Source of the DNA: Deinococcales bacterium
GTDB taxonomy: Bacteria > Deinococcota > Deinococci > Deinococcales > JAAFIG01
Direction: 5' to 3'
Assembly (NCBI GenBank): GCA_013298595.1
Contig: JAAFIG010000007.1
Span: 65,574-129,573 of the forward strand
Length of the DNA: 64,000 nucleotides
A model generated the notes under the pieces. It did no database searches. It was not told where the DNA came from and saw only the letters and a program-made list of their open reading frames with translations. Position numbers and translations under genes: made by a program. Position 1 is the first letter of the stretch; every line of letters starts with the position of its first letter. Below, one piece after another: positions 12,125-63,110 of the stretch.

Positions 12125-12163
12125 GTGGGAGGTTATTTACACAGCGAACCACCAACTGCAAGT

Positions 12164-12367: not shown

Positions 12368-12385
12368 AAGAGCCTGTGTTTTGAG

Positions 12386-15506: not shown

Positions 15507-15584
15507 TACTAACACTCCAAAAAAATGCTTGTATAATTTAAATGACGCTATACGTATTTCAAATACTTAAAGACTCGAGCCTTA

Positions 15585-15637
15585 GCGTTTAGCACAAGGC
15601 TGCACGCAAAATTCTACCACGCTTTCTCGAGTGCTTA
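15585..15637. repeat. Spacer repeat, copy 1 (downstream of xisI)
   Basis: A stretch of about 53 bp, sharing the run GGCTGCACGCAAAAT and a TTTCTCGAG end with 16,380-16,438. The two copies lie on either side of the xisH–xisI pair in the same orientation, with scattered differences. Confidence 0.7.
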
Positions 15638-15958
15638 CCTTACAAACTCGAGCTTCTGCTTCTGGCTCGGCATCATGTACGCCAACACGATTTTATTTTC
15701 TGGAATTCCAAGACGCATCAGTTCGTTTGCCACACCAATATCTGTTCCATCTTCTTGCACCCAAATCAGGTTATCTCGAATGTCCATTTGTGCCACAATG
15801 CCATGCACACGCTTATGCTGCTGCCAACCACTGACCAGAAGTTGATACTGATGCTTTTCTTTATCCGCCAGCAGCGAATACTCGAGTCCATTGCTGCTGC
15901 GTGGTGTGATGCTGTTCAGCACCTCGAGAATGGCTTGTTCTGCTTGTTTTATGTCCAT
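15635..15958 (-). CDS. xisI: XisI family protein (fdxN element excision controlling factor)
   Basis: A 107-residue XisI homologue. The hallmark segments are present: an N-terminal helix (IKQAEQAILEVLNSI), YQLLVSGWQQHKRVHGIVAQMDIRDNLIWVQEDGTDIGVANELMRLGIPENKIVLAYMMPS. In heterocystous cyanobacteria XisH and XisI are needed for excision of the fdxN element. Outside that setting they form a widespread pair of unknown function, and no excisable element is evident here. It overlaps xisH by 10 bp and contains several CTCGAG sites, so it is an older resident than the neighbouring island. Confidence 0.9.
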   Translation of the reverse strand: MDIKQAEQAILEVLNSITPRSSNGLEYSLLADKEKHQYQLLVSGWQQHKRVHGIVAQMDIRDNLIWVQEDGTDIGVANELMRLGIPENKIVLAYMMPSQKQKLEFVR

Positions 15959-16362
15959 GCCTCAATCACCTCTTCTTCTGTATTGTAGACCAATGATCGA
16001 ACATTGTGGCGTTTCAATGCAGCTTGTACAAGGTCACGCTCGAGAATTCTGGCATAAGTGGTATTTGGTAATGCAAGGTATAAAACGCGAGTTGGTTCGT
16101 TGGTCTCGAGTGCCATTTGATAATTTAAGTATTGCCCGAGTGCAGCATGAAAATCGTGGAGAATACTTGGGTTGTTAAAACTCTTTATCTCAACCGCAAT
16201 TTTTTGATTGTTCCGTTCTGCCGCAATGGTGTGTTCTGCCGCTAAGTCTATAGCTATCACATCTCGCCCAAAGCCAAGATAGTATGGGTCTGCGGTAATT
16301 TTCCAGCCTTCTTTCTCGAGGGCTGTTCGGACAGTATCATGGTAGTTATCACGGGCAGGCAT
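15949..16362 (-). CDS. xisH: XisH family protein (restriction-endonuclease-like fold)
   Basis: A 137-residue XisH homologue. It begins ARDNYHDTVRTALEKEGWKITADPY and contains DLAAEHTIAAERNNQKIAVEIKSF, whose D…E-x-K pattern is the PD-(D/E)xK nuclease core reported for this family. It is co-transcribed with xisI, which it precedes. The pair may act as a nuclease module or in genome rearrangement; nothing in the sequence decides which. Confidence 0.9.
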   Translation of the reverse strand: MPARDNYHDTVRTALEKEGWKITADPYYLGFGRDVIAIDLAAEHTIAAERNNQKIAVEIKSFNNPSILHDFHAALGQYLNYQMALETNEPTRVLYLALPNTTYARILERDLVQAALKRHNVRSLVYNTEEEVIEAWT

Positions 16363-16379
16363 AGCTGTATTCTACTCGT

Positions 16380-16438
16380 GTTTAGCATAGGGCTGCACGC
16401 AAAATCTTACCATGCTTTAAGCTTTCTCGAGCGCCTTA
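16380..16438. repeat. Spacer repeat, copy 2 (upstream of xisH)
   Basis: Partner of 15,585-15,637, slightly longer because of a small insertion before TTTCTCGAG. The copies bracket xisHI. Confidence 0.7.
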
Positions 16439-16942
16439 GTTAAAAGCTGTCGAAATCGCTTTTGGAAATTCCGTGACCAATTCGGATTGCTCGAGTAAAC
16501 CATCTGCATTAAAAAACTGCATATTGCCATTCTGGTCGCATTCCCAAACTTCTTTCGCACCTGCTGCAAAGTACAAGCCGCGTTTCTCGAGGAATTCTTC
16601 TTTGGTGTTGCTGTTACTCCAAACTTCCACGCAGATGCTTGGGGCGAGTGTGAATACATCGTCTTGTTCTTCATGAAAATGCGTTTCGAGCGCCCATGCA
16701 ACATCTGCCACGCGTACACCTTTACTGGTGAGAATACTGACTTCTTGGAGTGCATAACCACCTGTTAATAGTTGCTCGAGGTGCTTTGCGATGAGGTATT
16801 GCAAAAAGGTGTGGCGTTTGGTGACTGGACTGAGCAGTAATTGTCCTCTTTCGTTCAGTTCGATTTTATAAGGTAAGTCGTGTAGCGAAGGATTCTCGAG
16901 TACCTCTTGCCATTGCTTTTTGATTGAATTGGCTTGGGTCAT
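16436..16942 (-). CDS. Uma2 family protein (DUF820, PD-(D/E)xK-like)
   Basis: A 168-residue DUF820/Uma2 protein. Family elements are the early WQEVLENPSLHDLPYKIELNERGQLLLSP, the KGVRVADVAWA strand with its catalytic-type Asp, and PSICVEVWSNSNTKEEFLEKRGLYFAAGAKEVWECD with the E-x-x…K-x-x-Y-x-x-x-G-x-x-E-V-W pattern. ATG 16942 has AGGAG five bases upstream, so a longer frame from 16963 is unlikely. These proteins have a nuclease-like fold, and their role is unknown; they multiply in cyanobacteria and similar bacteria. A paralogue sits at 38,369. Confidence 0.88.
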   Translation of the reverse strand: MTQANSIKKQWQEVLENPSLHDLPYKIELNERGQLLLSPVTKRHTFLQYLIAKHLEQLLTGGYALQEVSILTSKGVRVADVAWALETHFHEEQDDVFTLAPSICVEVWSNSNTKEEFLEKRGLYFAAGAKEVWECDQNGNMQFFNADGLLEQSELVTEFPKAISTAFN

Positions 16943-17042
16943 AAAACTCCTAATTGGCTGCATTGTAGCAAATGCTTTTACCTCGAGTTTCCCACGCTTG
17001 GTGCAGGTTTTTACTTTGACTCGAGCGCGTATTGTTCAATGC

Positions 17043-17393
17043 TTAGCGCATGATTTTATCAAGGGTTTTGCCTTTTGCCAGTTCGTCAATCAGTTTATCC
17101 AAGAATCGTACTTTTTGCACCAAAGGATTCTCGATTTCTTCGACTCTTACACCACAAATCATGCCTTTTATCAGCGAGCTATTTGGATGAATCTGGGGAG
17201 CTTGGGCAAAGAATGTTTCAAAGCTGCTTTCTTGGTCTATGTGTTGTTGTAATCCTGATTGGTTGTAACCAGTCAACCAGCAAATAACTTGATCTACTTC
17301 TTCTTTGCTACGGTTTTTACGTGCGGCTTTGGCGATATATAACGGGTAGACTTTTGAGAATTTCATCGTTGCGAAGCGGTAGTCAAATTTCAT
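17043..17393 (-). CDS. DUF2200 family protein
   Basis: A 116-residue DUF2200 protein. FATMKFSKVYPLYIAKAARKNRSKEEVDQVICWLTGY is the conserved core of the family. ATG 17393 is chosen because GGAG lies six bases upstream and it matches family length; an earlier in-frame start at 17450 would add 19 atypical residues. The function is unknown. It is divergent from the TolC-like gene. Confidence 0.85.
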   Translation of the reverse strand: MKFDYRFATMKFSKVYPLYIAKAARKNRSKEEVDQVICWLTGYNQSGLQQHIDQESSFETFFAQAPQIHPNSSLIKGMICGVRVEEIENPLVQKVRFLDKLIDELAKGKTLDKIMR

Positions 17394-17558
17394 GGATTCT
17401 CCGTGGTGCTCATACCCAAAGTTTATCACGTATGCGTTTCTGGCAAGCATTTTGAGGATAAATCTCGAGCTGTTCCTCGAGCCTTGGTAATACCATCAAC
17501 ACAGAATCTACACAATTCGCACCTCGAGTCAACACAAACAACTTGCAAACTTGAGGAC

Positions 17559-18938
17559 ATGAGAAACGGTTCACCCAAAAAACGCATCAGTATCAAAATT
17601 ATTCAAGGCATTATTTACCGCAGCCTCATTTGTGGGTCGTTGGTTTTTGCCCAAGCACAAAATTATAGTCTCGAGAATGCTTACGCTGCCCTGCCAAACG
17701 CTCTCGAGTGGCAAAACGCCGACCTAACGTACCAAAGCGCCGAACAAAGCCTTGCCAGTGCTCGAGCCGCCGCTGGAATCAGCAGTAATGTTGGCGCGGA
17801 TGCCAACCTGACCCAACCGCTCAGTGGCACAGCCAGTACCAATACCACTGTCACAATTAAAGCTAGTGCCAGCTTACCTGTGCTCCCTTGGGCAGCCCAA
17901 TTTGATCAAATCCGCAGTGCCGAACGCGCCTTAACTCGAGCTACCCTCGATAGACGCGACAGCCGCAACACCTTAGATATTACGGTGACACAACAATACT
18001 TTGTAGCTCGAGTAGCGGCTCTTGACCTCGAGAATAACCAGTTCAGCCAAAATATCGCTGCACAACAATTACAAAATGCCGAAAAACAATTTGCTAACGG
18101 GCAACTCAGCAAAGACAGCTTAGAAACCACTCGTCGCAATTTTGAAAACAGCAAAGTTAATGTGCTTCAAGCCCAACAAACCCTCGAGATCAACCGTTTA
18201 CAACTCTGGACAACCCTCAGTACCAACCCAAGCAACGCCGAACTCAGCAGCGCCCCACAAAAACGCAACACGGAAAGCACCCTCGAGCAAATGCTTAGCA
18301 ACCTCGAGAACCGCTCCGATGTCCAAAAAGCCAAATCCCGCGTTGTCGATGCCGAAGATAACCTTGCCATCGCCACTCGAGACCGCGCTATTCCCAGCAC
18401 CACCATCAGCGCAGGTGTGAGCCAACAAGGCGGAGCCAGCCTCAACTCGAGCCTCAATATCGGCACAGGCGCACTATCAGTCAACGGTGCCTTACCTGTT
18501 GTCGGCGGGAACACCAGCACAGGTGGCACCACCAACCCCACCAACCTCAGCGTTGGAATTAGTCTCAGCATTCCCATTACCGCACCTAGCAACGACAGCA
18601 AAATAGATACCGCCAAAGCCAACCTCAACACTGCCAAAGCCAACCTCGAGACCACACGCCGCAGCGCCAAACTCGACATTCAACAAAAATATAACGACTT
18701 CCAACTACAAACCCGCCGCATAGAACTTGCCGAAAAAACCCTCGAGAACGCCAAAAACAACTTAGAAACCAACAAACAACGCCTTGCCCTTGGCAGTGTC
18801 ACAACACTCGACGTACAAAATGCCGAACAAACCCAACGCCAAGCCAACCGCGACCTCGAGAACCAAATCGCCACACAACAGATCAGTTACATGAAACTCG
18901 AGAATGCACTTGGGAAGGTGGTGGTGAAACGTCCATAG
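17559..18938 (+). CDS. TolC-like outer-membrane efflux protein (first copy)
   Basis: About 459 residues from ATG 17559, with a signal peptide ending near VFAQAQN. Two long alpha-helical coiled-coil regions carry the TolC/OEP repeat pattern (for example NAEKQFANGQLSKDSLETTRRNFENSK, and near the C-terminus ENNKQRLALGSVTTLDVQNAEQT-like heptads). Such proteins trimerise as the outer-membrane channel of tripartite exporters; the MacAB-like pump follows downstream. Codons are strongly C-ending, in contrast to the next TolC-like gene. A longer frame from 17403 is unlikely because it lacks a signal peptide. Confidence 0.88.
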   Translation: MRNGSPKKRISIKIIQGIIYRSLICGSLVFAQAQNYSLENAYAALPNALEWQNADLTYQSAEQSLASARAAAGISSNVGADANLTQPLSGTASTNTTVTIKASASLPVLPWAAQFDQIRSAERALTRATLDRRDSRNTLDITVTQQYFVARVAALDLENNQFSQNIAAQQLQNAEKQFANGQLSKDSLETTRRNFENSKVNVLQAQQTLEINRLQLWTTLSTNPSNAELSSAPQKRNTESTLEQMLSNLENRSDVQKAKSRVVDAEDNLAIATRDRAIPSTTISAGVSQQGGASLNSSLNIGTGALSVNGALPVVGGNTSTGGTTNPTNLSVGISLSIPITAPSNDSKIDTAKANLNTAKANLETTRRSAKLDIQQKYNDFQLQTRRIELAEKTLENAKNNLETNKQRLALGSVTTLDVQNAEQTQRQANRDLENQIATQQISYMKLENALGKVVVKRP

Positions 18939-18963
18939 CCACGCAAACCGCTTGCAAAAAACC

Positions 18964-19187
18964 GTAGGGGCGAGGCGTGCCTCGCCCACCACACAACGAA
19001 CAAGACACGGGCATACGAAAAATCATTCGTTGGTCACAGGGCGAATACAAGATTCGCCCCTACGGGCAAAAGAAAAATCGTTGATCGTCTCGGCATCACA
19101 AAAACGCAAAATTTATTGATTTTTGCAGCATCACAGCAATACAAAATTCATTGGTTATCTTGGGCGAGGCGTGCCTCGCCCCTACGG
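18964..19187. repeat. Three REP-like palindromes between the TolC genes
   Basis: Palindromes at 18,964-18,987 (GTAGGGGCGAGGC…), 19,039-19,065 (…ATTCGCCCCTACGG) and 19,162-19,187 (…CTCGCCCCTACGG) fill most of the 266-bp spacer. The first is opposite in orientation to the other two. Confidence 0.85.
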
Positions 19188-26203: not shown

Positions 26204-26265
26204 AGGTGAGGCGTGCCTCACCGTTATGGTTGGACAAAGCAAGGCGAGGCATGCCTCGCCCCTAG
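26204..26265. repeat. Two REP-like palindromes between DUF4240 and ung
   Basis: Palindromes at 26,204-26,229 (GGTGAGGC…GCCTCACC) and 26,242-26,265 (GGCGAGGC…GCCTCGCCCC). The first shows compensatory T/A changes that keep the stem. Confidence 0.85.
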
Positions 26266-26269
26266 AGGT

Positions 26270-26800
26270 TTAGTCTTCGTTTTGACTCATCAGGGCGAAC
26301 AGGTTTGGGAAATGCTCTTGGTAAAAATCATCATCATCTTCATTCCACATCTCACCAAATTGATGATTCGCATCTCGAGGTGGGAACGGTGGATACTGAT
26401 CGGTGCGGGCTTGGTAGACATCAGAAGCCACGGATAACATATCTTCAAACTCGAGTTCTTCGTAGGGTTCCCAGTCAGGAATTTGCGGCAAATAATCCGC
26501 TAAAGAATCAGGGTTCTCGAGGGCTGCAAAAAACACGGTTTTACCTTGGGCAACAAGCCAACCACGAAAATAATCAAAACCATCATCGGAGCAACCACCA
26601 TTTATCAGGTACGCAGCTGCCCACAGTTTTGAGAGATACGAACGGTTAAGAAAAGTCCAAATCCAACCATGTAATGCCACCAATTCATCGTTTGATAAGG
26701 TTTCGGCTTGCACAGAAAATTGTTCTCGTAAAGCCTCGAGATCATGACCAGCCACAGCTCTTGCATTCGCAATAAAATCCCAGAATTGATCTTCGGTCAT
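26270..26800 (-). CDS. DUF4240 domain protein
   Basis: A 176-residue protein beginning MTEDQFWDFIANARA, the start typical of DUF4240. Characteristic WTFLNRSYLSKLWAAAYLINGGCSDDGFDYFRGWLVAQGKTVFFAALENPDSLADYL and a late acidic tail (WNEDDDDFYQEHFPNL) follow. The family is uncharacterised; some members resemble WGR-/ADP-ribose-associated regulators, which I do not claim here. It lies within the MoxR operon but is flanked on both sides by REP palindromes, suggesting it arrived as a separate cassette. Confidence 0.88.
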   Translation of the reverse strand: MTEDQFWDFIANARAVAGHDLEALREQFSVQAETLSNDELVALHGWIWTFLNRSYLSKLWAAAYLINGGCSDDGFDYFRGWLVAQGKTVFFAALENPDSLADYLPQIPDWEPYEELEFEDMLSVASDVYQARTDQYPPFPPRDANHQFGEMWNEDDDDFYQEHFPNLFALMSQNED

Positions 26801-26832
26801 GATGATGCTCCTTTATGGTTAGTTAGAACGGC

Positions 26833-26859
26833 AAGGCGAGGCATACCTCGCCCCTACGG
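26833..26859. repeat. REP-like palindrome between DUF5682 and DUF4240
   Basis: One palindrome (GGCGAGGC…CCTCGCCCCTACGG) fills the gap directly after the DUF5682 stop codon. Confidence 0.8.
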
Positions 26860-26860
26860 T

Positions 26861-29119
26861 TTAGGACGGAATTCCTAGCATTTGCGAAATTAATGGCACA
26901 ACTTGTTCGGCTCGAGCATTATCCACGTTTTGATTGGCTCGAGTAACACTGATTGGCTTTGGGGTTTTAACTTTTTGTCCGATGTCACGGCGTTCGGCAG
27001 GTTCAAAACTCGAGAATGTACGCCGCAACAATGGCAGCACAGCAATAAAAGCTTCGGGTGTCAGGTACTGCACCCAAGAATCAAGCACACCAAACAAGGC
27101 ATCATCGTGCACCAAAACCAAACCACTGCCACGCAAAAAACCATCCAACCAAGCAGCCACTTCGTTAGGGTCAGAGGCAATACTTGCCACATACGACAAA
27201 CGATTGGCAGTGTCCTCGGCAGTAAACACACCTTGCTCGAGCAGCAATCTTGAAGCACGACCCGCAATCAAACCATGCAACCCAAGTTGTTTAGCCAGCA
27301 CTTGCAACACATCACGCCAAGCCTCGAGTAAACTGGGTTGCTCGAGGGTTTGAATAGCGCTGTGTAACTCGAGAAAATGCGGATAAAGATCAAGTGCAGC
27401 CTCATCGGATAAACTGGCGGTGGCATTAGGTAAACCAATACAGACACGCAACACCAAACCAGACACCACATGTTCCAACATTTTCGTATCGAGTTGCCGC
27501 ACACTGCCGTACCGCTGCACTCGAGCCAATGGCGGAATCGCTTGCATCAAATGATTGATATCAGCATCCTGAGCTGCCGCCGCCTCGAGCCGAGCCATAA
27601 CCAGTTGCGCCGCATTGGGCAAATTCGACAGCAAGACATCATCCAGTAAACCCGTTAAGGTTGGTAAATGACTGGTTAAACTCGAAATTTCCAGAACCTT
27701 CTGTGTTGCTGCTTCAAGCACACTCGAGCCAAACATCGCCGCTTCGATCAAACGCACTGCAAACTCAGGATGCCACTGCACCCGCCATGCCTCTTTGAAC
27801 GTACCCTTGCCACTCGAGCCAACACTTTCGCCCCACGGTACACCCAGCAACCGCAACCGATGCAACAACACACTGCGCTCGAGATCATTGGGTTGACGCA
27901 AATCGAATTCCACATTTTTAGCAGTTGCATCAGGCTTAAACCGCAAACGTTTTTGCTCCGCCTCGAGATCACGCACCAACGGCACCGTCGGTGTTTCCGC
28001 GGGCACGGCACCAAGGGTTTCTGCCAGAATCAACTTATCGCTAATCAGTGCAAGTGGCAAATCAGAATCCCAAGCAAACAATGCCCGCGAAACCTCATTC
28101 ATTTCGTCTAACCCCGGCATCGGCGAACCACGCAAGGCTGCCAGCGTCTCGGCTAAACGCACCGCTTCGATAATACTGGCACTCGAAGCAGGTAAATCCT
28201 CAGCTCGCAACAAATGCGCCACCTTGGTCAACCAATGCGACACCACATTGCGCGAAGACGAATCCTGCAAATCCCACAAATGCGCGTACCAACCTGGGCT
28301 GGTCACACCCGCACCATAGCCACTCGAGCGAGCTAAACGACCAAACGTCCACGGAATCCACGTACTCGAAACAGCGACCTTTGGTAAATTCTCCAGCAAC
28401 TTCGCATCGGCTTTGGCATCCGCCACCTCGAGATTCAACGCAGGTGAATGCCACGCACCACAAACCACTGCGATACGCTGAAAACCATCCTTTTGCGCCT
28501 GACGAATGGTTTGTCGCATAAAGGCTTCACGCAACGCCTCACGCGGCTCGAGCATCTTCGACTCAAGCCTCAGCGCCGTCATTGCCTCGAGAATCGCTGC
28601 GAAGACATCCTCATCCGAACGGCGCTGCTCGACCAAATACTCCCAGTAACGCTCACCATCAGAAAAACCAGCAGCTCGAGCCAACCAACCCAACGGGTCA
28701 GCTGCAACATCATCAGATTCAGCATTAGCATCGCTCGAGGCATCAGATTCGGTTTCGGCATTGGGCGAGGCATGCCTCGCCCCTACGAGTTCGGTAGGAT
28801 CAGCAAGCAATTGATGGGCTTGCGGTAAATCCATAAAACGCACCGAAGCATTATTCTCGAGCGCAAAACGAATTGCTTGAAACTCAGGCGAAAACGCAGC
28901 AAACGGATAATACACAGCCTTCGACGGATCATCCTTAGCATGCAACAACAACGCAATAGGCGGTTTCATATCCACATGCCCAAGCAACGGCAACAAATCA
29001 TTAGCATCAGGCGGACCCTCCACCAACACACAATCAGGCTCGAGCACCCGCAACGCCCGCAACAACGAACGCGCCCCACCAGGACCATGATGACGCACAC
29101 CAAACAAATGCACACTCAT
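26861..29119 (-). CDS. DUF5682 family protein (YehM-like)
   Basis: A 752-residue DUF5682 protein. The N-terminal signature MSVHLFGVRHHGPGGARSLLRAL, then VLVEGPPDANDLLPLL and later IAVVCGAWHSPAL, resembles the active-site-like His and Glu layout of TraB/EreA-type folds; whether it is an enzyme is not known. The C-terminal half is Leu/Ala-rich helical repeats. It is encoded next to MoxR and VWA genes throughout bacteria. A REP palindrome at 28,763-28,787 is translated in frame (VGARHASPN near residue 114). Its ATG overlaps the transposase stop. Confidence 0.9.
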   Translation of the reverse strand: MSVHLFGVRHHGPGGARSLLRALRVLEPDCVLVEGPPDANDLLPLLGHVDMKPPIALLLHAKDDPSKAVYYPFAAFSPEFQAIRFALENNASVRFMDLPQAHQLLADPTELVGARHASPNAETESDASSDANAESDDVAADPLGWLARAAGFSDGERYWEYLVEQRRSDEDVFAAILEAMTALRLESKMLEPREALREAFMRQTIRQAQKDGFQRIAVVCGAWHSPALNLEVADAKADAKLLENLPKVAVSSTWIPWTFGRLARSSGYGAGVTSPGWYAHLWDLQDSSSRNVVSHWLTKVAHLLRAEDLPASSASIIEAVRLAETLAALRGSPMPGLDEMNEVSRALFAWDSDLPLALISDKLILAETLGAVPAETPTVPLVRDLEAEQKRLRFKPDATAKNVEFDLRQPNDLERSVLLHRLRLLGVPWGESVGSSGKGTFKEAWRVQWHPEFAVRLIEAAMFGSSVLEAATQKVLEISSLTSHLPTLTGLLDDVLLSNLPNAAQLVMARLEAAAAQDADINHLMQAIPPLARVQRYGSVRQLDTKMLEHVVSGLVLRVCIGLPNATASLSDEAALDLYPHFLELHSAIQTLEQPSLLEAWRDVLQVLAKQLGLHGLIAGRASRLLLEQGVFTAEDTANRLSYVASIASDPNEVAAWLDGFLRGSGLVLVHDDALFGVLDSWVQYLTPEAFIAVLPLLRRTFSSFEPAERRDIGQKVKTPKPISVTRANQNVDNARAEQVVPLISQMLGIPS
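28763..28787. repeat. REP-like palindrome inside the DUF5682 coding sequence
   Basis: GGGCGAGGC…GCCTCGCCCCTAC lies within the gene without breaking the frame. It encodes VGARHASPN in a Ser/Asp/Ala-rich linker. Confidence 0.85.
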
Positions 29120-29745
29120 ACCAACACCTCGAGCCTTGCAAAAACCAAATCATGCAACACCAAATCAGATTTCGCCTCGAGATCAAACAACCAACTCGAG
29201 GGATTGACTTTGATGTAATCACGAACAGCCTGTAATTCGTGGTTGTTACGTAAAACACGTTCAAAATAATTGCGCTGCCAAACAACCAAATTTGGATTAT
29301 CAAAACGAACCCGAGCAACTCGAGAAACTGCTGACTTAAAACCACCAATAATTGCCCCCAATGAATTGGCTGATGCGTTCATTGGGGGGTCGGCGGTCTT
29401 GGTTTGTGATAAAAACAATTCTTTTCGTGCAGCGGCTAACTGTATTGATGCGTTTGCCATTGGCAAATTGGGCGAGGCAAGCCCCGCCCCTACGGCTGGT
29501 TGAATGCAAACAATCGCATGAATGTGATTTGGCATGACAATAAATTCGTCTAAAACAATATTTTCACGCAACTGCCCCATCCGATGCCATTCCTCGAGAA
29601 TAATTTTCCCTAATTCATTTAATTGCATTTTTTGATCATCAATTGAACCAAAAATCTGTTCTCGCTGATAACTACAAATCGTAATGAAATACGCACCGCT
29701 CGAGGTGTAATCAAAATTGCGTAATCGAATGCTGTTGCGTTCCAT
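29116..29745 (-). CDS. REP-associated tyrosine transposase (RAYT, TnpA_REP/IS200-like)
   Basis: A Y1 HUH-type transposase of about 209 residues from ATG 29745 (MERNSIRLRNFDYTSSGAYFITIC). The HUH motif is PNHIHAIV, and the catalytic Tyr lies in RDYIKVNPSSW near the C-terminus; VWQRNYFERVLRN is typical of the RAYT group. An in-frame extension to TTG 29880 (254 residues) overlaps the MoxR stop by 4 bp, but it translates a 30-bp tandem repeat and a REP. The stop overlaps the DUF5682 ATG, so the gene is embedded in the operon. A second REP (29,470-29,496) is translated inside it. Confidence 0.9.
   Translation of the reverse strand: MERNSIRLRNFDYTSSGAYFITICSYQREQIFGSIDDQKMQLNELGKIILEEWHRMGQLRENIVLDEFIVMPNHIHAIVCIQPAVGAGLASPNLPMANASIQLAAARKELFLSQTKTADPPMNASANSLGAIIGGFKSAVSRVARVRFDNPNLVVWQRNYFERVLRNNHELQAVRDYIKVNPSSWLFDLEAKSDLVLHDLVFARLEVLV
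29470..29496. repeat. REP-like palindrome inside the RAYT coding sequence
   Basis: GGGCGAGGCAAGCCCCGCCCCTACGG is translated as part of PAVGAGLASPN, between the HUH motif and the C-terminal domain. The frame is kept. Confidence 0.85.
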
Positions 29746-29771
29746 AAAACCCCAAAATCCCTGTCCTAAAC

Positions 29772-29796
29772 CGTAGGGGCGGGGCTTGCCTCGCCC
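29772..29796. repeat. REP-like palindrome in the RAYT leader
   Basis: CCGTAGGGGCGGGGCTTGCC… lies just upstream of the likely RAYT start. In the extended frame it encodes GRGKPRPYG. Confidence 0.8.
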
Positions 29797-29855
29797 TTGC
29801 CCGTAACGATGCTGATCCATCCTGACTTGCCCGTAACGATGCTGATCCATCCTGA
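29796..29855. repeat. Two perfect 30-bp tandem repeats in the RAYT leader
   Basis: The unit beginning CTTGCCCGTAACGATGCTGA occurs at 29,796-29,825 and again at 29,826-29,855, identical. Its length is a multiple of three. On the minus strand it encodes a repeated RMDQHRYGQ block, so the frame from the MoxR stop to the RAYT stays open. Confidence 0.95.
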
Positions 29856-53623: not shown

Positions 53624-54047
53624 ATTTATAGCCTCATTCAATCTAGGAGGAAGTACAACGAAGAGTTATTTTATTGGGGCAAACATTGTTGGCTGTGTAA
53701 AAAATCCACATCAGGATACAAAAAAATCACAGCGAAAAACTACTTGCACTGTCGCGCACAGATACGCTTTGGCTGGTGGCAGTAGCAACACTGTTGCCCA
53801 TATCTTTCTCAAAACCCCAACAATACCCCAAAGAGGCAGCAGGTGTTTCACTGCGCCTCCTCGAGAAAATCGCTCAAGGGTTCAAATGTAGTGCCAATCG
53901 GCAAGCTTACACCTGTAATAACAGAAAAGACTTGTTGCTGCTCGAGTTTTGGGGGTATATATGCCGTCTTTTTGGTTGGGAGGATCGTTTCCACACCCAA
54001 AAGGTATGAAGAAGTTGTTAAGAAGTTGTTAATATAAGAATCATTAC

Positions 54048-54121
54048 TATCCCACCAATTGCCGTAACAAAATCGGGTCTTGAATTTCAGAATCTTTTGC
54101 CAACATCAGTACCTTAGCAAT
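54048..54121 (-). repeat. 74-bp duplicate of the 3' end of the DUF4132 gene (copy A)
   Basis: Identical at 72 of 74 positions to 57,733-57,806. On the minus strand it still reads IAKVLMLAKDSEIQDPILLRQLVG and a stop (TAG here, TAA in the gene), with only synonymous changes. Homology ends abruptly upstream. The rest of the 53,642-54,257 spacer shows no gene or named element. Confidence 0.92.
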
Positions 54122-54257
54122 TTTAGTTATTTCAATTAAGGTGCAAACTGTTCCCAATGACCTTCGGAGACCACCTTGACAATTAAAATGGCTCAAGGCT
54201 AATTGCTGCATTTATGATTGGCATAAAAAAAGTTTGTCTTAGCGTGTTTTTGCGGGC

Positions 54258-54306
54258 TTGACATTTTAGAGTAAATGCTCTATTATTTTTTAGAGCATTT
54301 ACTCTA
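54258..54306 (+). promoter_or_regulatory. Autoregulated promoter: -35/-10 embedded in a double TetR operator
   Basis: TTGACA (54,258-54,263) lies 17 bp before TATTAT (54,281-54,286). Overlapping this are two arms TAGAGTAAATGCTCTA (54,267-54,282) and its exact reverse complement TAGAGCATTTACTCTA (54,291-54,306), with an 8-bp spacer; each arm is itself a dyad with TAGAG/CTCTA ends. Binding would block the promoter, so the downstream TetR likely represses itself. Confidence 0.85.
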
Positions 54307-54321
54307 TTCGGAGATTATCCT

Positions 54322-54888
54322 GTGAATACCAAACAAAAAATCCTTGAAACCGCCCTTGTATTATTTAACCAAGAAAGCATAAACCAAGTCACCACCAACC
54401 ACATCGCTGCCACCCTTGGTATCAGCCCAGGCAACCTTTACTACCATTACCGCAATAAAGAAGATATTATCCGAGCTTTATTCAACGATTTTGACCAACG
54501 CACCGAAGCAATTTTTGTGCTTCCAGAAGATAGACTCCCAAACCTAAGCGACCTCGAGAGTCTTATTGAAGCTAATTTTGAAATCCAATGGCAATACCGT
54601 TTTTTATTCCGTGACCTGCTTGGTTTGCTGCGCCGCGACCCAGAACTCGAGATGACTTACCGACAGCATCGGCAAAGAGGGTTTGAAGGCAACCGTGAAC
54701 TGATTCGCATTTTTGCTGCCAATGGAGTGATTGCTCCAATCAAAGACGATAATGACCTTGATGTATTAACCCGCCTGATTTGGTTGGTCAGCGACTTCTG
54801 GATATCCTCGCTTGAACTTGGAGGCGAGCCAATCACCCAAAAAACATTTCAACTCGGTGTGGCTTTACTGCGTCGCATTGCACAATAA
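54322..54888 (+). CDS. TetR/AcrR family transcriptional regulator
   Basis: A 188-residue TetR protein with a GTG start and GGAG eight bases upstream. Helix-turn-helix: INQVTTNHIAATLGISPGNLYYHYRNKEDIIRALF (about residues 20-55). The ligand domain contains FLFRDLLGLLRRDPELEMTYRQHR, as in a subgroup linked to membrane or fatty-acid stress. It sits at the head of an operon with DUF4386-like membrane proteins and an epimerase-like protein. Confidence 0.93.
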   Translation: MNTKQKILETALVLFNQESINQVTTNHIAATLGISPGNLYYHYRNKEDIIRALFNDFDQRTEAIFVLPEDRLPNLSDLESLIEANFEIQWQYRFLFRDLLGLLRRDPELEMTYRQHRQRGFEGNRELIRIFAANGVIAPIKDDNDLDVLTRLIWLVSDFWISSLELGGEPITQKTFQLGVALLRRIAQ

Positions 54889-54993
54889 GTAAAACAACCA
54901 GAATCTTTTGATCATCCATGTGGCTCTAACCAGACCATAGCAGTTACCCCATTGTTTCTTTCGCCCTCTCAAAGCACAAAAAGGAGTGAACAG

Positions 54994-55731
54994 ATGCAAA
55001 ATTTAACCCAACCCGCCTTGCCAATCCCCCGCCCAAATCTTCAAACTGCGCCAATCACCGCTGTTTTGCTGATTTTAATACCCATTACTTTTACACTGGT
55101 TTTTACTCTGCTTAGTACAAGTTTTGAATACCCAGATATTTTGCGTAAACCTGTCCCCTATGTTCTCGAGCGATTTACAGCTGGCGGAGCAGGTCTGATA
55201 GCCTTATGGTACGGAATGTTTGTTTCTGCCTTGGCGTTTATTGGCATTCCGCTTTTAACCCGTCGGTTATTTCCCCAACCAAACCTGCTGCTTGACCTAG
55301 GCACGATTTTTGGTGTGTTGGCAGGCTTAGTACAAGCCCTTGGTTTTGCTCGATGGATTTTTCTTGTACCTGCACTGGCATCTGCCCATATAAACCCAAG
55401 CTCGAGTGATGCGACCAAAGCCGCCATTGCCGTTGTCTTTGATGCTTTTAATCATTATGCAGGCATTGGTATTGGTGAGCATCTTGGGTACTTATTCACA
55501 GCCCTCTGGACACTCTCCATTTGCACTGCACTGGTGTCGCGTTCAAAGTGGCTTGGTTTTTCAGGTGCTATCTTTGCCATTGGCATTCTTGCAGGGTTGC
55601 TCGAGCCAATCGGCTTTGCTTGGGCAGGCACAATCAATGCGCTTTCCTACATTGCATGGTCGGTTTGGATGGTGGTTTTTGGCATCACCATCTGGCGAAT
55701 CAAACGACCAAACTTAGGGGCAACTTCATGA
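54994..55731 (+). CDS. DUF4386-like membrane protein
   Basis: A 245-residue integral membrane protein from ATG 54994 (AAAGGAGTGAACAG upstream), with about six to seven helices. It resembles DUF4386 proteins in layout: GIPLLTRRLF, GLVQALGFARWIFLVPALA, a FNHYAGIGIGEHLGYLFTALWT helix and a C-terminal LAGLLEPIGFAW segment. The function is unknown. Coupled to the next gene by ATGA at 55728. Confidence 0.8.
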   Translation: MQNLTQPALPIPRPNLQTAPITAVLLILIPITFTLVFTLLSTSFEYPDILRKPVPYVLERFTAGGAGLIALWYGMFVSALAFIGIPLLTRRLFPQPNLLLDLGTIFGVLAGLVQALGFARWIFLVPALASAHINPSSSDATKAAIAVVFDAFNHYAGIGIGEHLGYLFTALWTLSICTALVSRSKWLGFSGAIFAIGILAGLLEPIGFAWAGTINALSYIAWSVWMVVFGITIWRIKRPNLGATS

Positions 55732-56120
55732 ACTGGTTTGTGGCTAATTTCAAATGGATCATGCTAATTTCAGGCATCCTTACCGCCACCATGATATACG
55801 CTGTGATTGCCCCTCAAGCCGCCCTTAATTCCACCTTTGGCGCAAGCCTCGAAGATTCACTTGCCGAGATTGTTGTTCGCAATTGGGGCGCATTGATTAC
55901 CCTGATTGGCGCATCCCTGATGTACGGTGCGTTTGCTCTAAAATACCGTCCGTTAATACTGGTCATGGCAGGAGTCAGCAAACTTGTTTTTATCACGCTG
56001 GTTTTGACGTATGGAACGGCTTACCTTGGTCAACAAGCAGGTTTTATCATTGGTCTTGATGCTTTGATGGTTGTGCTTTACACAGTTTATTTGCTCAATG
56101 CTCGAGTAGAGCCATCATGA
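55728..56120 (+). CDS. Small four-helix membrane protein
   Basis: A 130-residue protein starting in the stop codon of the previous gene (MNWFVANFKWIMLISGILTATMIYAVIAP), with about four hydrophobic helices. No family was recognised. It overlaps the next gene by 4 bp (ATGA at 56117). Confidence 0.75.
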   Translation: MNWFVANFKWIMLISGILTATMIYAVIAPQAALNSTFGASLEDSLAEIVVRNWGALITLIGASLMYGAFALKYRPLILVMAGVSKLVFITLVLTYGTAYLGQQAGFIIGLDALMVVLYTVYLLNARVEPS

Positions 56121-56683
56121 ATACCATTCAGGCTTTTCCAAACTGGCAGTTCTGGCTGATATGGTTTCTAGCTTTCTTGGCTTTCCCAATCGGTGGGGTA
56201 CTTGCTAAAGCCTTGGTAGGCGCAATCAATAATCCAGTAGCGGCTTTGTTCGGTGGTTTACTGATGGGCTTGGTTCTTGGACTGGCACAATGGCTGGTGC
56301 TGAGGCAACAATTCTCCATCTCCTTCATTTGGGTTCTGGCAACAGGGTTTGGCATGGCAATCGGGCTTTTCTTGAGTCAGATTTTTTTGGGCAGCCAAAC
56401 AATAGGTCAGGATTTACTTTGGCGCGGTTTGATCACTGGTTTAGCCCTTGGATTAGCCCAAGGTTTGGTGCTTTACAACCTCGAGTTCCCACTTTTTCAC
56501 AGCCTGATTTGGGTTATCACGATTGGTCTGAGTTGGAGTCTGGGGTGGTTCATCACCCGTGCTGTTGGAGTTGACTTAACGCCACAATGGACGGTTTTTG
56601 GTTCGACTGGCGCATGGGCATTTCAAATCATCACTGGATTGCTGATGTACTGGCAAATTCTAAGTACACAAGGAGCAAAATGA
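56117..56683 (+). CDS. Hypothetical membrane protein with internal repeat
   Basis: A 188-residue protein of about five to six helices. Two similar helices (GLVLGLAQWLVLRQQF and GLALGLAQGLVLYNLE) suggest an internal duplication. No family was recognised. Coupled to the next gene by ATGA at 56680. Confidence 0.75.
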   Translation: MNTIQAFPNWQFWLIWFLAFLAFPIGGVLAKALVGAINNPVAALFGGLLMGLVLGLAQWLVLRQQFSISFIWVLATGFGMAIGLFLSQIFLGSQTIGQDLLWRGLITGLALGLAQGLVLYNLEFPLFHSLIWVITIGLSWSLGWFITRAVGVDLTPQWTVFGSTGAWAFQIITGLLMYWQILSTQGAK

Positions 56684-57639
56684 TTTCCTCAAAACAACCA
56701 GAACTGCACGTTATTTTTGGTACAGGACCACTCGGCAGATGGACAGCCCATGAATTACTCGCAATGGGTCATCAAGTTCGGATGATTAACCGCAGTGGTC
56801 AAGCAAAAGCCATACCAATTGGTGCTCAAATACAAAAAGGGGATGCTTATGATGCCCTGAAAAACATTGAAATGACCCAAGGGGCAAGTGCCATTTACCT
56901 TTGCGCCCAACCAGAATATCACCAATGGGAAGGTAATTTTCCAAGGTTGCAAGCCGCGATTTTACAAGCAGCAATAACCAATCGGGCAAAACTCATTGCT
57001 GCTGAAAATCTGTATATGTACGGCAACACCCACGGGGAAATCATTCACGAAGTCTTGCCTCACAATGCCAAAACCAAAAAAGGGCAGATTCGTCAAACCA
57101 TGACCCAAAGTCTTTTTGCAGCCCATCAAGCGGGTCAGGCTCGAGTTGCGGCTGTGCGCGGTTCGGATTTCTTTGGACCTAATGACCGAATTTATGGCGA
57201 TAACATTTTTGCACCTGCCTTAGCGGGTAAATCAATCAATGCCATTGGCAGTTTAGATCAACCACACACATTTACTTACACTGTTGATTTTGGCAAAACC
57301 CTTGCTGTGGCTGGAACAAACGATGCTGCCCTCGGGCAAGTCTGGCACGTGCCGAGTAACCCTGCTATCACTCAACGCAATTTCATCAACCTGATTGCCG
57401 AAGAAATTCAAAAACCCATCAAGACCATTTTGGCTACACCCCTGATGGTTCGTGCGCTCGGGCTGTTCAATCCTGGTCTGCGCGAAATGAACGAAATGAT
57501 GTACCAGTTTACCCAACCATTTGTTTTAGATAGCAACAAGATGACCCAGGCTTTTGGTTTACGAGCCACTCCATTACAACAAATCCAAGAAACAATCACA
57601 TGGGTATTAGCAAACACGGGTAAAACAGCCACTACTTGA
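56680..57639 (+). CDS. NAD(P)-binding epimerase/NmrA-like protein
   Basis: A 319-residue Rossmann-fold protein. The dinucleotide-binding loop is VIFGTGPLGRWTAHEL near residue 12, followed by RMINRSG and AENLYMYGNTHGEI. The YxxxK site of short-chain enzymes is not clear, so it may be an NmrA-type sensor or atypical reductase. Last gene of the TetR operon; a hairpin follows. Confidence 0.85.
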   Translation: MISSKQPELHVIFGTGPLGRWTAHELLAMGHQVRMINRSGQAKAIPIGAQIQKGDAYDALKNIEMTQGASAIYLCAQPEYHQWEGNFPRLQAAILQAAITNRAKLIAAENLYMYGNTHGEIIHEVLPHNAKTKKGQIRQTMTQSLFAAHQAGQARVAAVRGSDFFGPNDRIYGDNIFAPALAGKSINAIGSLDQPHTFTYTVDFGKTLAVAGTNDAALGQVWHVPSNPAITQRNFINLIAEEIQKPIKTILATPLMVRALGLFNPGLREMNEMMYQFTQPFVLDSNKMTQAFGLRATPLQQIQETITWVLANTGKTATT

Positions 57640-57665
57640 GAATTTCCAAACTATTTTTGCTTTGT

Positions 57666-57717
57666 ATTTTGCATACTTCCGACCTAACCACATCATTTAG
57701 GCGGAAGTATGCAAAAT
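57666..57717. terminator. Long inverted repeat between convergent genes (probable bidirectional terminator)
   Basis: ATTTTGCATACTTCCG (57,666-57,681) and its exact complement (57,702-57,717), with a further CCTAA/TTAGG pairing inside. T-rich and A-rich edges allow termination from both sides, between the epimerase-like gene and the DUF4132 gene. Confidence 0.75.
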
Positions 57718-57731
57718 CTTTGACTTGGTTT

Positions 57732-60700
57732 TTATCCCACGAGTTGCCGTAACAAAATCGGGTCTTGAATTTCAGAATCTTTTGCCAACATCAGTACCTT
57801 AGCAATCACCTCTGCGGTGCGTGGGTCAGAATCCGCGAACGGCAAGAAAATCCGTCCTCGAGCCTGATTCGGCACTGCCACCAAGCAAATCGCGCCGCCT
57901 GGTTGCTGATGCACCACAGCACTGCCAAGATGCACGCTGTACCGTCCAATTTGCCCTTCGATGAGTGCCACTGATTTCTCGAGTTTGACATTGCTGATTT
58001 TGAGTAATCGCAGTGTCTCGAGCAACAGCGCTGCTCGCATTTCAGTGGTGCTTTGTGAGGCTTCGGGGTCTACGCCGCCAACATGCGCCACTGAAACCAC
58101 CAAGTCAATGTCGCGCATGATTTCCGAGTACAAACGCTTTGGCATACTCTCGAGAGCAAGCGATTCGTAATCGCCGCGTTTGGTGAAATACACTGTGTCA
58201 AGGGCGGGTGCTTCGATTTCGGCTGGTGTTGTCCAACCTTGTTTGCTACTGACATGGGCGGTAATGCCTTCAGCAAAGAATGTACGGCTGGCATCACCTT
58301 CATAAGCATTGACCACCCAGCCTCTCGAGCCAAGCAATGCAGCACTTTGGCGTTGGTTGATCTGATGTCCTGCGTAACGACTGGACTTGGTTTTCTCGAG
58401 TTTTTCAGCATCGGTTAAGAGGTAGAGTTCCCGAAAAATCTGTTTGAATGGTTGCTGGCGTTTGGCACTAAAAAACGCTCCTTGGAATTCACTCCATTTT
58501 TTGCTCTCAAGTAAATCCACTGGGTGTGCAAGGCGTAAACTCGAGGCTTGAATACCAAGCAATTCGCCAGCCGCACTGACCAAGTTTTTACCATCAGCAC
58601 TTAAAAACCCCATTTGTTTTTCGTCTATAAAAACCAGTTGCTCGAGCATCGGTTTAACAATTGGGTGCTTGGTTAAATCTCGTAATTCCTTAGCAGTAAA
58701 TTCATCACCGTGAATCATGGCACGCTCGAGTGAAACTCGCATTCGACTGCGTTGCGTCTCGAGTTCTTTTCGTCTGGCACGAATTTCGATAACGGCTTCG
58801 TCTTTTTTTAGATTCGCAGGAATATCTTTGAGGGTCTTACCTGCTTTTTGAATCTCGAGCAGTGGTTCGCCATCAGCGGTGACCGATAAAATCAGTTCAA
58901 TATCGCCTTTTTTCAGAGTCACAGCGCCTTTAGATAAATCTGCTACGGCTTTTAATTCCATTGCCCACTCAAGCCGCATCGGGTCTGGGTAGCCAGCCGT
59001 GCGTGCCAAATTCTCGAGTCCGATTCGGCTGGCAAGCCGTTCAGATTCTTTGCGTTGTGAACCAAATTGTTTACTTTGTTTTAAGAAGGTTTGTATCACT
59101 TCGTAACGTGCTAAAAGCGCAGCATCTTTGGCTTTGGGCAGTGGTAACAACCCAAGAGCACGCACACTATCTTGATGGCGTTTACTGGTGATACGGGTGA
59201 TCACTTCCGATTCAACAAGTTTCCCGAGCATGGCATCGGCAAATTGCTTAGCTCTGGCATGACCCGTACCAGAAGTGATGTACTTGGCAGCATCATAAAT
59301 TTGTGTCCAATGTTCAGCGCCTAAGTCCTTATACACCCGATTAAACCATGCCACATCCACAGCACCATCCATTAAATCCTCGGTGGTCAGTGGGGTTAAT
59401 TGTGCCATCTCGAGTTTCCAATTTTCCCCTTCGGAATCGGTGCTAAAGCCACCTTCTTTGGTATGCGCCCGCAACCAATACATGCCTTCGGATAAGCCTT
59501 TCCAGCCAATGGTTTTAGCAACAAATTGTGTCCATTGTGGTGCAAACAAACCAAGCTCGAGTAAGCGTTGCTCGAGGATACCAGCTTTTTTCATGGCTTT
59601 AGCAAAATCGGTTTGCGTATCTGTTTTAGCTGGGTAAACAGCTTGTAAAAGGTCTGAAAATACATTCATACGTGGTGCTTCGCCACTATAATAATACCCA
59701 CTACCACGTGAAATATTATCCTTACCAATGGTGGTTAGAATCTGCATTAAACGCGGTAAGCCCTCTAAGAAACGAATGCGACTGGCTGCACCTGTGGCAG
59801 CGGTTGGTAAATCGCCTCGAGCCAATTCGATCTCGAGAACCCGATTAGCGCATTGCTCGAGTAATGGTTGTAATTGTGGGTAGGTTTTGACTAAATCAGA
59901 AGGGGTTTTGAGTAAATGCTCGGTAAAACCATTGTTGCATTTGACATCTTTTACTGGACGCAGATTCTCCGTACCAATCAGGGCTTCCATGACATCGGTT
60001 TGGTTAGCAATGCCTGCTGCCCAAGCTGGCATTAAGTAATCAAGATTGATAGTACGACGATAATTCCACCATAAACGCAATCCCATACTATGCTCGAGTT
60101 GCCAAGTCCGAATTTTTTGTGCATTGGTCAATTCAGCTTGACTGGTCGCAATTTTAAGAATAATTGGATTGAGTTTTTTAAATGCCAAATAGGTTTTGTC
60201 TTTTTGCAATTTTTCTTCATCAGGAAGTTCAGCTCCTGCTACAACAAATTTCTTAAAGCCTTGCTCGAGCATTGGAATACTTTGCGCCAATTGATCCTCT
60301 AAAATATCCAAGGCAAAATCGTGCTCGTTAGCGGCTGGGTAGAGTTCTTTGAACCAGTGCAGGATTTGCACCAAATGACTCTCGAGGTTTGCATCGGCTT
60401 CTTTGCGTTTTTTTGGTTTTAAACTCGAGAAATACGTTTTTTGCAACTCGGTATTGGTGATGCCAGGATCATCATTATCGGGGTCGAGATCGTAAACAAA
60501 ATCTTCGTCGTAATAATCATCGTCATCATCGGTATCAGACTTAAACATAAACGAACGAATCGCAATTGCCCGTAGCACCTCGAGTCCATCGCTATCACGT
60601 TCTTTAGCAGTACGATTCAGAAACCAAGTTGACCACATTTCAGATAATGGAAATTTCTGCCATTGCTCGAGTAGTGTTTCTTCTTTGTTGTGCGTATTTG

Positions 60701-62609
60701 GCGAACGTAAATACGCATTCTCAAATGGTTTTTGTTCAACAGTATTACTCCAATTGATTGCATCCACAACCGTTAAACGTTCTTGCCAAATAATTTTCTC
60801 GAGCGAAGCTAAAAATGCCAGTGTGGCAGGTGTGACCAATTCGATTTTTTGTCGCTTAAAAGCAAAAGCTGGGGTACGTAATTGTGGGTCAAACAAACCA
60901 AAACCATCTTTTGGACTCGGTGCGTTTTCCTCGAGCCGCACACGCTCAAGTGCTTTTGCAATTTCCTCGCCCGCTTTTTTCTGTTCGGGGGTTTTAGCCA
61001 CTTTTAAGCGAGTTGCGCTGGCACTGGCAAATTCGGCAGGTTGTGCCAAAATTAAACTAATCGTATCTTTACGCACCGAAGCTGTTTTGCGACTTAATTG
61101 TTTCTCGAGCGCAGGAAACTCGTTTTCCTCGAGTAAAACTTTACTTTTTTGCATTGCCTGAAACGCTCTTTCACGCAAGTAATTATCCTTATGGATTAAG
61201 GCTGCAACTACCATATCCCTAGTTTCAGTATCCCAAGGAGTTTTTTCGGTTAATGCCTCAATCATGCGACGCAAATACCACGGATCGAGTTGATCTTTAT
61301 AAGGCAGCATCAAACGCACATCTTGCCCCGAAAGCAAATCAAACATTTGCCGAGTAATTTCGCTCGGTTCAACCGAAACATCGCCCAACCATGTTTCTGG
61401 GGCTTTACACTTGGTAGCAACTGCAAAACGCTCGAGATAACGCTGCATGGTTTTAAACGAAGCACTGCTTTGCTCGGAAGTTTCGTGAGGTAACACCACA
61501 ACTTGCCGAGCCTTGATTGCCACAGCATCATCGGTATCAAAAAGGGCTGCCAGAATATCTGGGTGTGTGTTCAAATCAAAAGTACGCAATAACTCGAGAG
61601 CCAGAAAACGGTACTTTGCCTCTTTGTGCTTCAGCCACGGCAGCGCCAGTGATTGTGCCTCTTCGAGATTCTGCACTGCCAAGGCATAAATAGCCAAATA
61701 CAACTCGAGCAAGGTTGGAGTGCCTTTGAGATTTTTGGCAATTGTCTGATTAGCCTTTGGATTCTCGAGCCGTGCAATAAAATCCTTTAAGGCATTCTCA
61801 AGCACCTTTGGCGTTGGTTCTGGTGGTAAGGCAGGTAAATACCCAACTGCCCATTGCACACTCGAGGAAAAACGCAGCAGATCCTCTTTTAGAATAAGTT
61901 TAAGCATCCGTAATAACGCAGTTGGATGTGCAACACCGATTTTATTAAAAATACTTTGCCGCAAACCTTCTTGGCGTTGCGCGGCAAGCAAGATTTTCTC
62001 GAGCAAATCCCAACCTTCAACGCGGTTAGACCGAATCAACACTTGAATCACATGATCGCCCATGATTGCCACAGGATGCTCGTTCTTAGCCGCCGCCATC
62101 ATGATCTGAAAAACAGCATCATTGCCCGCATCCACCGCTGCTGTATAAACACCAACACAGTAGTACTGAAAAGACCACTCGTAGGCTGCATACTCGGCGA
62201 ACCATTCAAGTGGTTGATCAAAAGCACCAAGGTACTCGAACCACCCTTTGGCTTGTTCGGCTTGCACGGCAATGCTAGGAGGGGTACTCGAGTGAAAACG
62301 ATACGTTTCTGGTGTTTGCACCGCTGCTAGTACTTCGGTATGAAAGCGCGGAAACCATGCAGTCAGTACCAAAGCAAAATCTTGACTCGAGATTTGAGCA
62401 AACGCATTTTGGGCAGCCAGAACAAATTTGTTACGTAACTCGTAATCATCAAAGTGCAAATCTTCGCCTTTAGCATCAAGGCTAAGATAATCCAAAGTAA
62501 CTTGCACCAAATGCTTAGGCAATTTTTGTATCCGCTGAGCCACCAGCGCATCAGCGTTTTTGATCCGAGCAGCTTCAACGATTTTCTGTGCATCTTCGCG
62601 CTTGAGCAT
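57732..62609 (-). CDS. Giant DUF4132 protein (MolR/YehI-like)
   Basis: A 1,625-residue protein. The N-terminal ~1,000 residues are helical and HEAT-like (for example LSRKTASVRKDTISLILAQPAEF), with an acidic Asp-rich loop around residues 695-715. The DUF4132 region lies near residue 1,240 onward: MEWAMELKAVADLSKGAVTLKKGDIELILSVTADGEPLLEIQKAGKTLKDIPANLKKDEAVIEIRARRKELETQRSRMRVSLERAMIHGDEFTAKELRDLTKHPIVKPMLEQLVF matches the family well. E. coli YehI/MolR is the nearest named relative; function is unknown. It is translated directly after its small partner (TAA followed at once by ATG). Confidence 0.88.
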   Translation of the reverse strand: MLKREDAQKIVEAARIKNADALVAQRIQKLPKHLVQVTLDYLSLDAKGEDLHFDDYELRNKFVLAAQNAFAQISSQDFALVLTAWFPRFHTEVLAAVQTPETYRFHSSTPPSIAVQAEQAKGWFEYLGAFDQPLEWFAEYAAYEWSFQYYCVGVYTAAVDAGNDAVFQIMMAAAKNEHPVAIMGDHVIQVLIRSNRVEGWDLLEKILLAAQRQEGLRQSIFNKIGVAHPTALLRMLKLILKEDLLRFSSSVQWAVGYLPALPPEPTPKVLENALKDFIARLENPKANQTIAKNLKGTPTLLELYLAIYALAVQNLEEAQSLALPWLKHKEAKYRFLALELLRTFDLNTHPDILAALFDTDDAVAIKARQVVVLPHETSEQSSASFKTMQRYLERFAVATKCKAPETWLGDVSVEPSEITRQMFDLLSGQDVRLMLPYKDQLDPWYLRRMIEALTEKTPWDTETRDMVVAALIHKDNYLRERAFQAMQKSKVLLEENEFPALEKQLSRKTASVRKDTISLILAQPAEFASASATRLKVAKTPEQKKAGEEIAKALERVRLEENAPSPKDGFGLFDPQLRTPAFAFKRQKIELVTPATLAFLASLEKIIWQERLTVVDAINWSNTVEQKPFENAYLRSPNTHNKEETLLEQWQKFPLSEMWSTWFLNRTAKERDSDGLEVLRAIAIRSFMFKSDTDDDDDYYDEDFVYDLDPDNDDPGITNTELQKTYFSSLKPKKRKEADANLESHLVQILHWFKELYPAANEHDFALDILEDQLAQSIPMLEQGFKKFVVAGAELPDEEKLQKDKTYLAFKKLNPIILKIATSQAELTNAQKIRTWQLEHSMGLRLWWNYRRTINLDYLMPAWAAGIANQTDVMEALIGTENLRPVKDVKCNNGFTEHLLKTPSDLVKTYPQLQPLLEQCANRVLEIELARGDLPTAATGAASRIRFLEGLPRLMQILTTIGKDNISRGSGYYYSGEAPRMNVFSDLLQAVYPAKTDTQTDFAKAMKKAGILEQRLLELGLFAPQWTQFVAKTIGWKGLSEGMYWLRAHTKEGGFSTDSEGENWKLEMAQLTPLTTEDLMDGAVDVAWFNRVYKDLGAEHWTQIYDAAKYITSGTGHARAKQFADAMLGKLVESEVITRITSKRHQDSVRALGLLPLPKAKDAALLARYEVIQTFLKQSKQFGSQRKESERLASRIGLENLARTAGYPDPMRLEWAMELKAVADLSKGAVTLKKGDIELILSVTADGEPLLEIQKAGKTLKDIPANLKKDEAVIEIRARRKELETQRSRMRVSLERAMIHGDEFTAKELRDLTKHPIVKPMLEQLVFIDEKQMGFLSADGKNLVSAAGELLGIQASSLRLAHPVDLLESKKWSEFQGAFFSAKRQQPFKQIFRELYLLTDAEKLEKTKSSRYAGHQINQRQSAALLGSRGWVVNAYEGDASRTFFAEGITAHVSSKQGWTTPAEIEAPALDTVYFTKRGDYESLALESMPKRLYSEIMRDIDLVVSVAHVGGVDPEASQSTTEMRAALLLETLRLLKISNVKLEKSVALIEGQIGRYSVHLGSAVVHQQPGGAICLVAVPNQARGRIFLPFADSDPRTAEVIAKVLMLAKDSEIQDPILLRQLVG
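57733..57806 (-). repeat. 3' end of the DUF4132 gene, duplicated at 54,048 (copy B)
   Basis: Intact copy within the DUF4132 gene. The two copies are in direct orientation 3,685 bp apart and enclose the TetR operon. Confidence 0.92.
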
Positions 62610-63050
62610 TTAGCCTCCCGCCAACGCCACAAGGCGTAGGAACATGATTTCTTGGTTGTACTCGAGATTGACCACATCGGTTAAACGCTCGATTTGGTTA
62701 TCACCATAAAAGGCGTAATACAAACCATCGGCAAACGCCTGAATTGCTACTTGAATCGCCTCATCAGTATTCACGTCTTGCTTAAATTCTTGCCCACCCA
62801 AACTGATTTTGCCAGTCTCGGCAGCCTCGAGTAATTGGTTTTCGGTTAACACCCGTAAAAACTGATTATCAGTTTGGCGAGTGCGAAAAGCATCCACCTC
62901 AAGCGCCACAATGCGTTCAATCAGTTCTTGTAAGGTTGGTTGCATTGAAAAATTGCCAATGCTGTATTCGCGTGTCGTGAGGGCTTTTTTGCGACCAAGT
63001 TGTTTGACGGTCAGCGTTAAGTTGACAGTAATCCCAGTTGATAAGTCCAT
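62610..63050 (-). CDS. Small partner of the DUF4132 protein (uncharacterised)
   Basis: A 146-residue protein from ATG 63050, preceded by AGGA. It starts MDLSTGITVNLTLTVKQLGRKKALTTREYSIGNF and has a C-terminal VNLEYNQEIMFLRLVALAGG. No family was recognised. Its stop codon touches the DUF4132 ATG, and GGAGG for the downstream gene lies within its end, so the two are made together, probably as a complex. Confidence 0.78.
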   Translation of the reverse strand: MDLSTGITVNLTLTVKQLGRKKALTTREYSIGNFSMQPTLQELIERIVALEVDAFRTRQTDNQFLRVLTENQLLEAAETGKISLGGQEFKQDVNTDEAIQVAIQAFADGLYYAFYGDNQIERLTDVVNLEYNQEIMFLRLVALAGG

Positions 63051-63110
63051 AATCATATCCTAGCTGTCCATGATGAGTCTAACGTTGGGACGAGTTGGGG
63101 TAAAAATATA

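Follow-up and report, generated by a model that had tools for sequence, protein, structure and literature searches.

The duplicated gene end and the operon between its copies

The window analysed here is a stretch of 64,000 nucleotides from a Deinococcales bacterium. It carries an intact DUF5724-DUF4132-DUF7737 gene on the minus strand (57732..62609, 1625 aa; domains from Pfam), with orthologues in two genomes of the same family, G001 (also of the same genus) and G003. Directly upstream of this locus lies a 148-aa gene (62610..63056, minus strand), which is conserved at the same place in G001 and G003 and provides an anchor for synteny. The 3′ end of the DUF4132 gene occurs twice. Positions 54048-54121 and 57733-57806 form a direct repeat, 72/74 identical at a spacing of 3685 bp, which is the top-scoring direct repeat of the window (E 6e-29). 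Copy B (57732..57806, minus strand) is the end of the intact gene, while copy A (54047..54121, minus strand) is an orphan 3′ end that holds the last 24 codons of a DUF4132-family gene and a TAG stop. Copy A has the orientation of a tandem partner and ends at the native stop codon. Searches of its flanks and of either side of the operon returned no further DUF4132 similarity. We scanned 436 kb of the same genome, by stretches, for direct repeats of at least 45 bp and at least 85% identity within 15 kb; only copies A and B and a tandem array that opens contig C66 passed these thresholds. A chance origin of the repeat is excluded. Elsewhere in the window, at 26239-29802 and 12048-19186, there are several dispersed repeats of 26-39 bp in both orientations (87-100% identity), which may belong to one small repeat family.

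Each copy codes for the final 24 residues and stop of the 1625-aa protein, reading …IAKVLMLAKDSEIQDPILLRQLVG-stop, with TTG and TAG in copy A and CTC and TAA in copy B. Over the full 75 bp, up to and including the stop, the copies differ at three positions, all within the last 15 bp (0/60 followed by 3/15), a clustering with a chance probability of 0.007. Two of the three amount to a double change in one codon, the CTC of the functional gene. The leucine codon concerned is TTG in every relative and in copy A, and CTC is found only in the intact gene; it is the intact gene that deviates, and copy A keeps the codon of its relatives. The first-pass annotation had described the repeats, their 3.6-kb spacing, and a copy A with unchanged protein sequence, synonymous change only and a different stop codon. 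All of this holds, with the emphasis corrected in that the TTG of copy A is the codon shared by all relatives. The same pattern bears on a simple physical origin, in which a staggered DNA break at the 3′ end of the gene was filled in and the operon captured, leaving a 75-bp target duplication. Such an event would yield flanking direct repeats without a recombinase, and the repeat is indeed exact over 60 bp, but it leaves unexplained why all three later differences should fall in the last 15 bp, two of them as a double change in one codon of a functional gene. We consider this origin improbable.

The 3.6 kb between the copies contain five genes, all on the plus strand, for a TetR repressor, three membrane proteins and an NAD-epimerase. 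The left inner flank of the insert (54122..54321) was characterised by promoter scan, inverted self-match and sequence inspection, and carries the TetR promoter (TTGACA-17-TATTAT, 54258-54286) together with paired AGAGNNNNNNCTCT repeats. The two AGAGNNNNNNCTCT palindromes, at 54264-54312, are mutually inverted and overlap the promoter, and they are likely to form a TetR autoregulatory operator. The TetR-family gene itself (54322..54888; PF13972 and PF00440) encodes a protein 48% identical to a TetR protein adjoining a DUF4386 gene in another Deinococcales genome. It is followed by a DUF4386-like membrane protein (54994..55731), which has no Pfam match above cut-off and is 33% identical to an annotated DUF4386 protein of a Deinococcus aetherius plasmid, a small membrane protein that is weakly DUF4345-like (55728..56120; E 0.0018, below the Pfam cut-off), a membrane protein without a family match in Pfam (56117..56683), and a protein of the NAD-dependent epimerase/dehydratase type (56680..57639; PF01370), whose best relatives are 38-51% identical. 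A strong hairpin (57666..57717; RNA fold z-score -5.6) separates the operon from the convergent DUF4132 gene and is probably a bidirectional terminator that ends transcription from both sides.

The operon looks horizontally acquired, since it is absent from close relatives and related clusters stand in distant or mobile contexts. We did not find the DUF4386-like gene in three genomes of the family (G001, G002 and G003), and TetR matches in all three are weak. The epimerase has no match in G001, and the other two genomes hold only relatives of 41-51% identity at other places. A TetR-DUF4386 pair is present in another Deinococcales genome, and a TetR-cupin-DUF4386-epimerase cluster lies between IS elements on the D. 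aetherius plasmid pDAETH-1. As in the insert, TetR, DUF4386 and NAD-epimerase genes run in one direction there; unlike the insert, the plasmid cluster includes a cupin gene and has no counterparts of the two additional membrane genes, and the 8.5 kb inspected contain no annotated DUF4132 gene.

The palindrome CTCGAG is highly iterated in this Deinococcales family: the whole window has 384 sites (about 6 per kb), and the loci read from G001, G002 and G003 have 7-8 per kb. A reduced density in the 3.6-kb insert, claimed from the first reading of the window, was borne out at 2.2 per kb versus 6.2 per kb elsewhere in the window, and only 2.8% of 3.6-kb stretches are as CTCGAG-poor. Dinucleotide composition, however, predicts 0.21 sites in the insert (0.06 per kb) versus the eight found. 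With this roughly 40-fold excess the insert is no newcomer to a CTCGAG-rich genome, and a long residence in such genomes is suggested.

DUF4132 loci in the family and in Chryseobacterium

In G003 a single DUF4132 gene is followed by a MeaB-like GTPase gene (annotated by eye), with no insert. G001 has two DUF4132 genes head-to-tail on one contig, 15 bp apart, the upstream one cut by the contig end. It holds at least three different DUF4132 3′ ends (L014 1-5292, L019 1-4741), the third of them on the contig that carries the 148-aa gene, though G001 is a fragmented MAG and its assembly does not span an array of three genes. An exact join of the two contigs was tried and rejected: the sequences fail to join, which leaves the third 3′ end as a separate one. 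This third copy, on G001 contig C441, is strongly diverged in its N-terminal half and close in its 3′ part. Over about 100 bp it matches one of the others (copy 2) without an apparent difference, inside a surrounding 505 bp at 88% identity, and homogenisation among the G001 copies is therefore likely.

Directly after the DUF4132 genes of G001 stand HTH_17 and PIN-domain genes (L014 5333-6396), a possible toxin-antitoxin pair; with these genes there, the place downstream of DUF4132 differs in every relative examined. The downstream neighbours in the window (metalloprotease and two-component genes) were looked for in G001 and G003 and their synteny is not conserved, so this family offers no true empty site. 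The finding that would have spoken against an insertion, relatives that all carry the insert and have no second repeat, was not made, as no family relative examined has the insert here.

Chryseobacterium provides what, by sequence comparison, is an independent parallel, in which gene, cargo and a short DUF4132 3′-end stub lie in a row and other species have empty sites. The DUF4132 C-terminus has a match in 58 of 173 Chryseobacterium genomes. Seven inspected genomes show the empty site, a DUF4132 gene followed by a convergent 111-aa gene; in one of them (G277) the DUF4132 gene is frameshifted near its end. In G111 (Leaf201) and G159, a secreted FG-GAP protein gene and then a DUF4132 3′-end stub are placed between the gene and the 111-aa gene, with the same cargo and the same left junction in both. 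The cargo protein is T9SS-sorted and the stub lies downstream of it (L016 8985-11389; L125). The G111 stub is 98% identical to its own gene. The G159 stub has a frameshift and is closer to the normal gene end of G182 (91% identity) than to its own gene (79%); it is the stub that resembles the genus norm here, and the end of the intact gene that is the outlier. On the simplest reading, the G111 stub was apparently overwritten by its own intact gene while its sister in G159 decayed.

Further genomes of the genus vary. In G118 the cargo is again the same and the stub has decayed, on a contig that ends before any gene, and G250 has a stub with no gene found. In G115 and G270, different genes separate DUF4132 from the 111-aa gene and no stub was detected, so that cargo is not always accompanied by a stub. 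No stub was seen in about 20 Flavobacterium genomes with the long gene; a 62-residue candidate in Flavobacterium G331 was rejected as an artefact, ending 2 bp from the contig end. DUF4132 3′ stubs are thus real but rare, with about two events in Chryseobacterium.

Comparison with integrative elements

The arrangement invites comparison with e14, which restores the 3′ end of icd and leaves a displaced copy of 163 bp (PMC6379469). As with e14 or a phage at icd, a foreign block lies downstream of a gene whose end is intact, direct repeats of the gene's 3′ end stand at both ends of the block, and the displaced second 3′ end lies beyond it. Unlike e14, the 3.6 kb here consist of ordinary operon genes without an integrase, and there is no element family with these ends. 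The first-pass annotation had noted the missing integrase, and Pfam confirms it, detecting no recombinase domain in any of the five insert genes. A genome-wide search for tyrosine recombinases detected one (Phage_integrase family), on another contig. The repeat has no match in the phages, plasmids and viral contigs searched, and the left terminal region of the insert has no second occurrence in the genome. We also tried the right-end hairpin as a repeated element terminus and rejected it, as it too is unique in the genome. Related elements, or the same site in use elsewhere, were not found.

These results leave weakly supported the proposal, made from the first reading, that a site-specific insertion restored the end of the gene. 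A non-autonomous integrative element that used the DUF4132 3′ end as attachment site, with the recombinase acting in trans, would account for a layout matching that of e14 in icd, and DUF4132 3′ stubs do stand beside cargo in Chryseobacterium as well. Against it are the lack of a recombinase in the insert and the single Phage_integrase-family gene detected in the genome, the uniqueness of both insert ends, and a site that appears in no mobile carrier searched; we regard such an element as very improbable. We would give an equally slim chance to the broader idea that, across distant phyla, a recombination process yet to be described repeatedly uses the 3′ end of genes of this DUF4132 subfamily as a docking site for cargo and leaves short gene tips behind.

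Origin of the second gene end

The other alternative raised from the first reading, by which copy A is what is left of a tandem DUF4132 gene, is the better of the two, and draws support from the tandem and multi-copy 3′ ends of G001 and from the Chryseobacterium stubs beside cargo. Our best explanation, to which we give roughly even chances, takes copy A for the remaining tip of a second DUF4132 gene that lost its body at the arrival of the operon, a tip kept similar to the intact gene by conversion or crossover. This second gene would once have followed immediately after the intact one, read in the same direction, with copy A as its last 75 bp. Its body would have been lost when, or after, the foreign TetR-regulated five-gene operon arrived there, leaving the 3′ tip. 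About 60 bp would then have been made identical by gene conversion, or by a crossover within the 3′ end common to both genes, whereas the last 15 bp lay beyond the tract and in copy A would represent older sequence. We infer both that a complete second copy existed here and the order of these events.

Several observations fit this account. A close relative, G001, carries tandem DUF4132 copies. The Chryseobacterium stubs, one of them apparently converted by its own gene, show the same layout, and copy A has its TTG codon in common with all relatives. The edge of a conversion tract fits the distribution of differences (0/60 then 3/15, p 0.007), and the apparently perfect stretch of about 100 bp in the G001 C441 copy is what conversion would leave. 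Long residence, as suggested by the CTCGAG content of the insert (8 sites versus 0.21 expected), sits badly with a very recent duplication, except with a close relative as donor. The layout is also that of a truncated tandem paralogue subject to gene conversion, in its orientation, its near-identical 3′ tip, its multi-copy family in a sister species and its tract edges; unlike the usual case, only 75 bp are left and a foreign operon fills the gap. On the other side, there is no further trace of a second gene on either side of the operon, G003 is single-copy, the G001 3′ ends come from a fragmented MAG, and the near-identity of the copies needs conversion or a very recent event. We know of no strain with a full second DUF4132 copy and the operon. 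The missing traces of the body are no defining failure of the stub reading, since their absence is expected if the body was deleted.

The main and close rival of a lost second gene is that the operon came with its donor's own DUF4132 3′ end and terminator, so that after recombination copy B is the new tip of the gene and copy A the resident's old one. We hold this to be possible but doubtful. Were copy A the resident end, it should have the ancestral codon and copy B the deviant one, and this is what we see; similarly, the G159 stub follows the genus norm and the intact end is the outlier, and Chryseobacterium relatives have true empty sites. The import might, with similar reservation, have proceeded by homology-facilitated illegitimate recombination or a single crossover. 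One-sided homologous integration is described as a process in PMC3240628, and in transformation one homologous and one non-homologous joint would give the layout seen here. What it needs, however, is a donor with the operon already beside a near-identical DUF4132 end, and none was found. Both a lost second gene and an imported donor end predict a copy A that looks older, as found; they differ on whether a complete second gene ever stood here.

Uncommon as it is, copy A most likely reflects ordinary gene turnover next to an acquired operon and not the passage of a mobile element. When a duplicated gene end flanks foreign genes, then, it need not mark an integration site. The G111 and G159 pair suggests that a gene can overwrite its own stub, and for that reason the identity of the repeats does not date the insertion. 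Should stubs at the DUF4132 end turn out to recur, the gain and loss of genes could be tracked there step by step.
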